58,499 bases of DNA from an uncultured Chloroflexota bacterium (GTDB lineage: Bacteria > Chloroflexota > Anaerolineae > Aggregatilineales > Phototrophicaceae). Of the stretch, positions 7,595 to 10,244 are shown in pieces. The position numbers and the translations under genes are program-made. Every line of letters begins with the position of its first letter. Position 1 is the first letter of the stretch. The notes under the pieces are model-generated. The model was not told the origin of the DNA. It worked only from the letters and a program-made list of their open reading frames with translations, and ran no database searches. The stretch spans positions 1-58,499 of the forward strand of contig CAIPFY010000126.1 in NCBI GenBank assembly GCA_903864435.1. The letters run 5' to 3'.

Positions 7595-8095
7595 TCAGGT
7601 TTGGGGCGTGAGGTGATAATAGCCCCGATTATGGTAGATGATGGGCTGCTGCTGAAGGTCGCTGCCTGTGGCGAGTACCTCGCCGACGATCATGCGCGTG
7701 ACGCCTGCTTCATGGATGGCATGTAGTCGGCAGTCCATCCAGCCGACTGCGCCCGCCAGAAGGGGAGCGCCAGTGGTGGCGGTGTGCGTCTCGACCTGAT
7801 AGAAGCGATCGGCACCTTCGGGCAGTTTGGCGAAGCCTGCGAACTGCGCCGAAAGATGCCCCTGCTGTGCATTCAGTACCGAAATCGCAAAAATGCCGGT
7901 TTTGCGAATGAGTTTGTAGGTTTCGATGTAGTTTTGCAGGCACACCAGCACCAGCGGCGGTTCCAGCGAAACGGATGTGAACGAGCTGGCGGTGACACCC
8001 GCACGGGCGACTCCGTCGGTGCTAGTAACGACGGTAACACCGCTGGCCCACAGGCGCATGGTCTGGCGCAGACTTTCCATATCAACACTATTCAT
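7595..8095 (-). CDS. Flavin reductase family (FMN-binding split-barrel) protein
   Basis: A 166-aa protein of the flavin reductase-like domain family, which uses NAD(P)H to reduce FMN or FAD, often for a partner monooxygenase. Family features include ASGVTVVTS near the start, GVTASSFTSVSLEPPLVLVC (core flavin-binding strand region) and a C-terminal YHNRGYYHL segment. Start is placed at the ATG at 8095 with GAGGTG about 8 nt upstream. It is the last gene of a compact four-gene set. No dedicated monooxygenase is nearby, so its partner is unknown. Confidence 0.88.
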   Translation of the reverse strand: MNSVDMESLRQTMRLWASGVTVVTSTDGVARAGVTASSFTSVSLEPPLVLVCLQNYIETYKLIRKTGIFAISVLNAQQGHLSAQFAGFAKLPEGADRFYQVETHTATTGAPLLAGAVGWMDCRLHAIHEAGVTRMIVGEVLATGSDLQQQPIIYHNRGYYHLTPQT

Positions 8096-8124
8096 GACAT
8101 TACACCTCGTTAGGTTCAAGATAC

Positions 8125-9072
8125 TCAGGATACGGATTGCATTCCGGCAGAGGGTTGATCCCGGTTGAACAGCAGATCGGCCATACGCGGAACATAATCG
8201 GTCAATGCTGCAAATCCGTCCGCGAAGGTTTCTCGCTGGCGACCAATAATCACGGTTGGAATATCGTTTTCAGTATGGTTGCGGTGGTCAATGGCTTCCA
8301 GATTGCCATGATCGCTGGTGATAATCATCAAGCCTTCGTCATCGTTCCATGCTTCCAGCGCACCCGCCATGACTTCATCGAACAACTCTAGAAGATCAAC
8401 CCCTGCGCTTAGTGGCCCACGATGACCGATTATATCCGTTACCCAGTGGGAGAAGAACGCAAAATCGTAGTGACGGGAGATTTCGACCATTTTGCCACCG
8501 CCTTCGCGGGGCGTATACAGGGGGGTATCGGTGTAGCCGAGTTCGGATCGCCACCCCTGACCTGTCCAGTCCACCGCCAGCGCCTCGCCGCGATACAGGT
8601 TGGCTTCGGTCATCAGCGGTAAGCCGGCTTCCAATACGGCTTGCTGGTAACTGGCGGGCAAGCGTTTGCGGCTATCAATCCCCTGATGGAAGCGCGGCGG
8701 ATAGGCTTCGATCAAGGCGGCAGTTCCACCGTGCGAAACCACTTGCTTAAAGAAATTATCCCCGGCGATGAGCGCACGGATGGCCGCGTTAGGCTTGGGG
8801 CCATAGTGTTCCCCGATGATCTGCGGAATATTGCGTCCGGTGAGGATTGCGGCTTGTCCGGTGGCACTTTGCGGACGGCCTGCAACACCTAAGCGAGCAT
8901 CTGTGGGGATGAACAGCGCACGCTCAGTCTGCTGGCGACCGATTCCAGCGAGCCAGCGGCGGCCATTGGTCAGGCTGTGCAGCGTGGGTAAGTGGGCGGC
9001 AGCGAACGGGTTGGTGTTCGGATTATCTTCCCCTAGACCGATGCCATCCAGAAAAATCATGAGTATGTGCAT
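8125..9072 (-). CDS. Alkaline-phosphatase-superfamily metalloenzyme (phosphomutase-like)
   Basis: A 315-aa protein related to cofactor-independent phosphoglycerate mutase and phosphopentomutase. It begins with the metal-binding LDGIGLG (Asp9), has a SATGQAAILTG segment where the Ser/Thr nucleophile is expected, and carries TSDHGNLE plus a following HRNH for the second metal site. Two metal ions and a phospho-enzyme intermediate would be expected from the superfamily; the substrate cannot be read from sequence. Its ATG directly follows the TAA of the upstream thioredoxin gene (TAAATG), which suggests coupled translation. Confidence 0.8.
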   Translation of the reverse strand: MHILMIFLDGIGLGEDNPNTNPFAAAHLPTLHSLTNGRRWLAGIGRQQTERALFIPTDARLGVAGRPQSATGQAAILTGRNIPQIIGEHYGPKPNAAIRALIAGDNFFKQVVSHGGTAALIEAYPPRFHQGIDSRKRLPASYQQAVLEAGLPLMTEANLYRGEALAVDWTGQGWRSELGYTDTPLYTPREGGGKMVEISRHYDFAFFSHWVTDIIGHRGPLSAGVDLLELFDEVMAGALEAWNDDEGLMIITSDHGNLEAIDHRNHTENDIPTVIIGRQRETFADGFAALTDYVPRMADLLFNRDQPSAGMQSVS

Positions 9073-9576
9073 TTAGGAACCGTTTGTTTTCTCCGGCATG
9101 ACAGAGGCTTGTTCCAGTTCGGTTTCGGATGGCGGCGTATGTGACCGCCAGATTTCTGAACCCGCCGAGTCGAACAGCACAAATTCCGGCGTGAAGCTGA
9201 ATCCGTAGCGCTCCCGCAGGGTGCGACCAAAATCGGTATGAATATCCACTCGCAAAATATTGAAACGGTCATCCAGACGCGCTACCAGCGCATCAACCGC
9301 CGGTTTCGCGGCGGTGCAGCCCAGTCAGTATTGGCTGAAAAATTCGACAAAGGTCGGTTTCCCGCTGCCGATGAGCGCGACCGCAGCATCGGCGTTGTTC
9401 ACATCGCTGACGCTTTGCCGCAGCGCCAGCCACGCGCCGGTGAATGCCAGTGTCGCGATGACGATAACCGGCAGGATGACGCGCCATTTCAGCCGGAATA
9501 GGCGCATCACACCCGCGCCGATTAGCAAGATGATGAGCGAAATCCAGATGAAAGAAAACTGGTTGAATAGTTCCAT
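9073..9576 (-). CDS. Membrane-anchored thioredoxin-like protein, candidate selenoprotein (UGA at codon 84)
   Basis: The frame from ATG 9576 to TAA 9073 encodes 167 residues if the in-frame TGA at 9327-9325 is read through. Residues 8-25 and 32-52 are transmembrane segments. The thioredoxin strand TFVEFFSQY is followed by TGA-Leu-Gly-Cys (codon 84, Cys87), then AAKPAVDAL, and later the cis-proline motif FTPEF (Thr129-Pro130). TGA therefore sits exactly at the first cysteine of CxxC, giving UxxC. The ATG overlaps the MBL gene's stop (TAATG) and the TAA abuts the next ATG (TAAATG), so reading the whole frame leaves no gap on either side. A 7-bp hairpin begins 9 nt after the TGA. Alternatives are a Cys-to-stop mutation or a base error. 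Sec-decoding genes are not in this window. Confidence 0.75.
9296..9324 (-). other. Candidate bacterial SECIS hairpin
   Basis: Directly downstream of the TGA in the thioredoxin gene, the mRNA has 9 nt and then ACCGCCG (9315-9309), loop CGAAAC (9308-9303) and CGGCGGT (9302-9296), a perfect 7-bp GC-rich stem. The apical loop begins 17 nt after the TGA and has G as its second base. As I recall them, bacterial SECIS rules ask for a loop about 16-37 nt downstream with a G in the first two positions, so this fits at the near limit. The E. coli GU loop motif is absent. Confidence 0.55.
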
Positions 9577-10244
9577 TATTGTTTTTCTGCCTGTTGTTGC
9601 GCATAGTCCAGTAGGAACGGGTTGGTCTGCCGTTCGCGCCCGATTGTGGTGAGTTCCATGTGTCCGGGCAGGACGCGGGTATCATCGCCAAGCGGCAAAA
9701 GCTGCTCAAAAATTGAGCGCATGAGCAACGGGTGATCGCATCCGGGAAGGTCGGTGCGTCCGATGCTGCCTGCGAACAAACAATCGCCGCTAAAGACTAG
9801 CTTGGCTTCGGGCATATAGAACGCGATATGACCGGGAGCGTGACCGGGCGTGAAACGGGTTTCCAACCGGATCGAGTCCAGCGTGAGGGTTTCCGGTTCG
9901 GAAGTGAGCAACCGATCCGGTTCCGCCGCTTCAGGGAACAGCCGTCCAGCGATGCGCAGTCCGGTTTGGGGCAGGTTTTGAAGCATCGGGAGCGAGTCGC
10001 CGTGAATATAGAAGGGCGCGCCGGTGATCGCTTTCAGGTCGGCACTGGCGAGAACATGGTCGAAATGTGCATGGGTCGCCAGAATGAGCTTGATCGTCCA
10101 GCCTGCATCCTGCGCGGCACGTTGGATGTACTGTGCGTTGTCCACCGGGTCTATCACCAGCGCCGAACGGGTTTCGGTATCAGCCACAAGGTAACAGTGG
10201 GTGGCGGCCAGCCCCAGCGTGAATTGTTTGATTTCGATTCCCAT
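9576..10244 (-). CDS. MBL-fold metallo-hydrolase (glyoxalase II-like)
   Basis: A 222-aa metallo-beta-lactamase-fold protein with the metal-binding THAHFDH (residues 57-63), a downstream FTPGHAPGH histidine, the FSGDCLF aspartate and a final LPGHM histidine. This pattern matches glyoxalase II and related thioesterases or persulfide dioxygenases; the exact substrate is not clear. It is the first gene of the compact set that continues with the thioredoxin-like protein, sharing one base with it. Confidence 0.88.
   Translation of the reverse strand: MGIEIKQFTLGLAATHCYLVADTETRSALVIDPVDNAQYIQRAAQDAGWTIKLILATHAHFDHVLASADLKAITGAPFYIHGDSLPMLQNLPQTGLRIAGRLFPEAAEPDRLLTSEPETLTLDSIRLETRFTPGHAPGHIAFYMPEAKLVFSGDCLFAGSIGRTDLPGCDHPLLMRSIFEQLLPLGDDTRVLPGHMELTTIGRERQTNPFLLDYAQQQAEKQ

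Follow-up and report, generated by a model that had tools for sequence, protein, structure and literature searches.

The window, a 58,499-nucleotide stretch of DNA from an uncultured Chloroflexota bacterium, carries on its minus strand a thioredoxin gene that is broken once, by a TGA at codon 84. We judge it very probable that in this gene, which encodes a thioredoxin with a predicted membrane anchor, the codon is decoded as selenocysteine (Sec), because the TGA falls on the single critical codon and the same TGA is found in two congeners. In thioredoxins, the first active-site residue attacks a disulfide and the second resolves it. We infer that, in the window protein, Sec84 would carry out the attack and Cys87 the resolution, with two N-terminal helices keeping the thioredoxin domain on the outer side of the membrane and the cell's SelA, SelB, SelC and SelD decoding the UGA. 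Members of the protein family differ here, and only here, in having Sec or Cys. The Sec form studied here stands among Cys orthologues, and its gene would have to rely on a SECIS element unlike the one common in the family.

The read-through frame runs from 9576 to 9073 on the minus strand, a strand that the first-pass annotation of this DNA had left out. It comprises 167 codons plus TAA and matches the Pfam Thioredoxin family (PF00085) with 29.2 bits against a cut-off of 23.5. The proposed Sec codon (9325–9327, minus strand) is the only break in the frame and opens a U-L-G-C motif, as had been noted earlier. Cys87, the proposed resolving cysteine (9316–9318, minus strand), and Pro130 (9187–9189, minus strand), which we take to be the cis-proline position of thioredoxins, are both invariant in 53 aligned rows. 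We also reproduced the tight packing of the operon. The frame overlaps by one base the stop of the upstream gene (TAATG), which encodes a metallo-beta-lactamase (MBL) fold hydrolase (9576–10244, minus strand; PF00753, 94.3 bits), and abuts the ATG of the downstream gene (TAAATG), which encodes a PGM-like metalloenzyme superfamily protein (8125–9072, minus strand; PF01676, 71 bits). A flavin reductase-like gene follows (7595–8119, minus strand; PF01613, 140.1 bits). Termination at the TGA would open 252 nt (9073–9324) before the downstream gene. A standard gene caller stops at such a TGA, so members of the family are likely annotated as truncated helices lacking the active site.

A thioredoxin fold is predicted for residues 62–159 (9100–9393, minus strand; mean pLDDT 91.3), and among the 50 matches listed by Foldseek against the PDB nearly all are named thioredoxin, with alignments of 84–111 columns; with the Pfam match, these results bear out the fold assigned at first reading. 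Two membrane helices are predicted ahead of it by the structure model and by hydropathy, at residues 3–26 (9499–9570) and 31–52 (9421–9486), both on the minus strand, in agreement with the earlier proposal of a two-helix anchor with the domain outside, itself a matter of prediction. The pair recurs in 74 of 76 homologous rows with a long N-terminus, the 35 shorter rows of the 111 having been set aside. Lysine and arginine together average 3.2 residues in the turn between the helices versus 0.14 before helix 1. By the positive-inside rule for membrane protein topology, this basic turn suggests that both ends of the protein lie outside.

Across 111 distinct homologous loci, the codon equivalent to codon 84 is TGA in 77, TGC in 25 and TGT in 9, giving 34 with Cys; the alignment was anchored on a motif required to have C or U, and any other residue would have escaped it. 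None of the aligned domains in these loci contains a further in-frame TGA, in a count that TAA or TAG would have escaped. The coincidence of 77 TGA and 34 Cys at one codon with no other in-frame TGA marks this as a selenoprotein family, and it matches the earlier claim that Sec replaces the first CxxC cysteine of a thioredoxin, for which Cys or TGA was to be expected opposite the stop in relatives.

The loci were gathered from several searches. A class-wide protein search matched 201 of 396 genomes at E ≤ 1e-5, with many matches listed as having one internal TGA and a weak end that includes ordinary thioredoxins; a search of the window's taxonomic family matched 54 of 98 genomes. We collected 115 loci (30 from the class search, 22 from the taxonomic-family search, and 3 and 60 from further searches) and reduced them to 111 by dropping the duplicates L078 (the same place as L056), L079 and L095 as well as L080, an ordinary thioredoxin from another phylum. 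The ratio of 77 to 34 is not a census, because loci came from the top of the match lists, G349 (no stop) was skipped and weaker rows were left out. A second TGA is listed in a few class-search matches, and in the three that were fetched (L090, L093 and L124) it lies just beyond the aligned domain. Outside the class, too, the phylum has read-through matches, with 98 of 301 genomes giving any match at E ≤ 1e-12.

Some genomes hold Cys and Sec paralogues together (L085 and L131 in G313, L099 and L114 in G127, L021 and L096 in G366). At another locus (L127:1091-1486), the Sec thioredoxin directly adjoins a second thioredoxin with a stronger Pfam match (110 bits), and the two are possibly a working pair.

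The genome from which the window comes, a draft of 5,389,799 bases in 464 contigs (completeness 94.54, contamination 4.88), has all four selenocysteine genes that the first-pass annotation had named as the ones to look for. The tRNA-Sec scores 68.6 bits (cut-off 47), has the anticodon TCA and is called by ARAGORN too; selB scores 376.2 bits (cut-off 242.25) and selD 369.8 bits (cut-off 125). selA reaches 518.6 bits (cut-off 267.9) and is cut by a contig end, and a second selA fragment elsewhere in the genome scores 45.5 bits, below the cut-off. The selD gene (L171:1501-2436, minus strand, contig C453) contains an in-frame TGA of its own, in the motif U-A-S-K, which makes it probable that the genome uses Sec elsewhere; a 5-bp hairpin follows this TGA. 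Given a fragmented draft with contamination of 4.88, a foreign origin of the sel genes is conceivable in principle, but the congeners G402 and G406 have them too, with tRNA-Sec matches of 75.3 and 74.5 bits, respectively, and selB over the cut-off in both. Within the window itself, there were no Rfam matches at gathering cut-offs and no ARAGORN tRNA.

The tRNA-Sec cut-off (RF01852) is imperfectly specific, as 5 of 14 control genomes pass it, some of which presumably lack Sec. Weak matches near 50 bits in relatives may therefore be false, and 68.6 bits together with an ARAGORN call makes a stronger case than these. With the same caveat for weak matches, 310 of the 396 class genomes and 73 of the 98 in the taxonomic family match tRNA-Sec, and the Sec trait seems common in the class Anaerolineae. 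A match is present in 67 of 76 genomes with a Sec row versus 21 of 31 with Cys rows only (Fisher p=0.023, uncorrected for kinship); most genomes with the Cys form retain the trait. Two Sec-row genomes without a match, given as 90 and 92% complete, count against the Sec reading.

The Sec rows share a hairpin of 8 bp, formed by positions 19–26 and 30–37 nt after the UGA, with a three-base loop at 27. Standard pairs fill 89% of the hairpin cells in Sec rows and 46% in Cys rows, compared with 23–46% when the hairpin is slid and 68% in synonymous shuffles of the Sec rows; since the structure was chosen from the Sec rows themselves, the Cys rows are the fairer control. At least 6 of the 8 pairs form in 73 of 77 Sec rows versus 5 of 34 Cys rows. 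Taken singly, 28 of the 77 Sec rows exceed their own synonymous shuffles at 0.05. In the 77-row alignment (74 distinct), both sides have changed in 85 cells, where shuffles average 28.7 and 0 of 500 reach the observed count; the number of pairs with both-side change and the number of further pair types stay within the shuffles (60 and 92 of 500) in the same alignment.

Three other measures were tried and set aside as discriminators. Hairpin energy by itself is a poor guide to whether a row is Sec or Cys (p=0.011, with many Cys rows equally stable), and synonymous shuffles of best-hairpin energy, run for 22 of the 111 rows, have little power: shuffles are as stable in 16–17 of 100 for rows with the family hairpin, 35 of 100 for the window gene and 0–1 of 100 for three Cys rows. 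A G-U at +27 is undiagnostic, since all 77 Sec rows have it and so do 31 of 34 Cys rows.

Four Sec rows are without the family hairpin: the window gene, which forms 3 of the 8 pairs, L063, which forms 2, L077 and L096. All belong to the window's taxonomic family, in which L076 and L121 do have the hairpin. That L077 and L096 also do without it suggests that a different type of SECIS may exist in the family, and some known bacterial selenoprotein genes depart from the consensus SECIS model, according to a review (PMC9312934). The window gene offers two mutually exclusive candidates on the minus strand. The first has 7 bp and a six-base loop 16 nt after the UGA (9296–9315) and is not clearly beyond shuffles; the second has 7 bp above a lower 4-bp stem, with its loop 27 nt after the UGA (9278–9310). 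Neither stands clearly beyond chance: the counts are 18 and 30 of 200 dinucleotide shuffles (7 and 10 of 200 for shorter, chosen stretches), and the second is not beyond its synonymous shuffles (35 of 100 equally stable). The missing family hairpin is the reason that we keep our judgement below certainty.

The setting of the gene among its relatives also bears on the reading. In the thioredoxin tree its clade (SH-aLRT 85) has 28 rows, of which 26 are Cys and 2 are Sec, and a tree of four neighbouring genes (36 rows) places it beside L057, a Cys locus (96/86). Its nearest relatives, L056 and L057, both have Cys. Gene order is well kept in the 29 loci of the taxonomic family, with the PGM-like neighbour adjoining the thioredoxin in 28 and the MBL neighbour kept in 26, and these syntenic loci include 3 with TGA and 26 with Cys; within the genus, TGA occurs in 3 of 11. 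Besides the window gene, G406 and G402, both congeners, carry the TGA at this codon of this locus. Well supported branches of the four-gene tree force at least three changes between Sec and Cys. Two histories would give this picture: retention of Sec here, with a change in many sisters, or a regain of Sec. One version, to which we would give somewhat less than an even chance, is that Sec gave way to Cys with loss of the family SECIS and was later regained at the same codon with a new, differently built SECIS, for which the Cys orthologues of the genus provide controls. The first-pass annotation had proposed a Sec thioredoxin; the fold, the exchange, the machinery and the predicted helices agree with this, while the absence of the family hairpin and the nesting among Cys orthologues are features that it did not foresee. 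The sel genes, whose absence it had named as a refutation, are present, and among the homologues there are forms with Cys at codon 84, the lack of which it had also named.

Those two features are what would be seen if the gene encoded a true Cys thioredoxin in a lineage already fixed for Cys, its TGA having arisen by an error in sequencing or assembly or by a recent nonsense mutation, and only one base change separates TGC or TGT from TGA. However, the Cys version of the ORF could acquire a stop by 41 different single changes, only one of which, by inspection, lies on codon 84. A chance origin is unlikely given this one site in 41, the same stop in G406 and G402, and the lack of TGA elsewhere in the aligned domains of the 111 loci (where TAA or TAG would be missed). 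We regard this alternative as improbable, though not negligible. A short functional product of 83 residues, which would have the two helices and one strand but no thioredoxin site, is far less probable still. Its ORF exists, and a weak SECIS would favour termination, but each of the 10 relatives compared shows higher conservation downstream of the TGA than upstream of it, and the following gene abuts the full frame. That the UGA is read by suppression as Trp, Cys or another residue, without Sec, would suit a frame that continues past the UGA and has no usual SECIS, but is hardly credible when TGA occurs only where relatives have Cys and the Sec genes are present in the genome.

The suggestion that the protein works with its MBL-fold and flavin-reductase neighbours draws slight encouragement from the recurrence of flavin reductase in other taxonomic families, but the reductase gene lies beside Sec and Cys forms alike. 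By tblastn, 24 rows have a flavin reductase nearby, including 7 from beyond the window's taxonomic family. At 12 diverse loci we found 44 neighbouring ORFs, and the 20 scanned against Pfam are mostly unrelated (for example amylase, EF-G, glycosyltransferase and sigma factor), with two flavin reductases among them (L030 and L032). A flavin reductase as the partner of the thioredoxin is thus suggestive only. Thioredoxin, PGM-like metalloenzyme and flavin reductase (7595–9576 in the window) are found near one another in several taxonomic families of the class, whether the thioredoxin is a Sec or a Cys form, and the recurring PGM-like and flavin reductase genes hint at a shared context rather than at a Sec-specific partner.

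With orthologous Sec and Cys enzymes in one genus and in the same gene order, the locus lends itself well to studying what keeps Sec in place or brings it back. It is also suited to asking how little SECIS the bacterial SelB needs.

Sec-containing thioredoxins are already known. Bacterial thioredoxin with UxxC (PF00085) is given as an experimentally verified Sec family in a 2026 review (PMC13188914), which also lists SaoT, HUIPC and other thioredoxin-like selenoproteins. For Chloroflexi, the count of selenoproteins in a 2006 survey was 3 (PMC1794560), and a word search for "Chloroflex" and "Anaerolin" gave 0 mentions in the accessible text of PMC13188914, PMC12013277 and PMC5029168. The literature that we searched, on selenoproteins of Chloroflexota and Anaerolineae and on thioredoxin-like selenoproteins, yielded no description of the anchored Sec/Cys family. 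The window protein resembles TsoB (NF045694), SaoT and HUIPC in having UxxC or a related motif in a thioredoxin-like domain. The NCBIfam selenoprotein models gave no match to it at E ≤ 0.001, and no NCBIfam model of any kind reached its cut-off for this protein or for 7 relatives; the TsoB model matched 3 of the 7, far below cut-off. The canonical thioredoxin equivalog (TIGR01068) is also missed, with 23.1 bits against a cut-off of 96.8. Soluble thioredoxins of the PDB such as 6esx and 1nw2 are similar in structure (in the 50 matches listed, TM-scores by target length reach 0.77), and the family profile matches 261 sequences of the PDB at E ≤ 0.001. The alignments to these soluble proteins omit the helical hairpin of the window protein, however, and the PDB proteins have Cys where the window protein would have Sec. 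A close parallel is with the Sec bacterial thioredoxin (PMC13188914), which has in common with the window protein a thioredoxin fold, Sec at the first CxxC position and Cys in homologues. It differs in that the protein family of the window has the family hairpin in its mRNA, which the window gene itself is without, and in that the window protein bears two predicted N-terminal membrane helices and belongs to a sequence family of its own.
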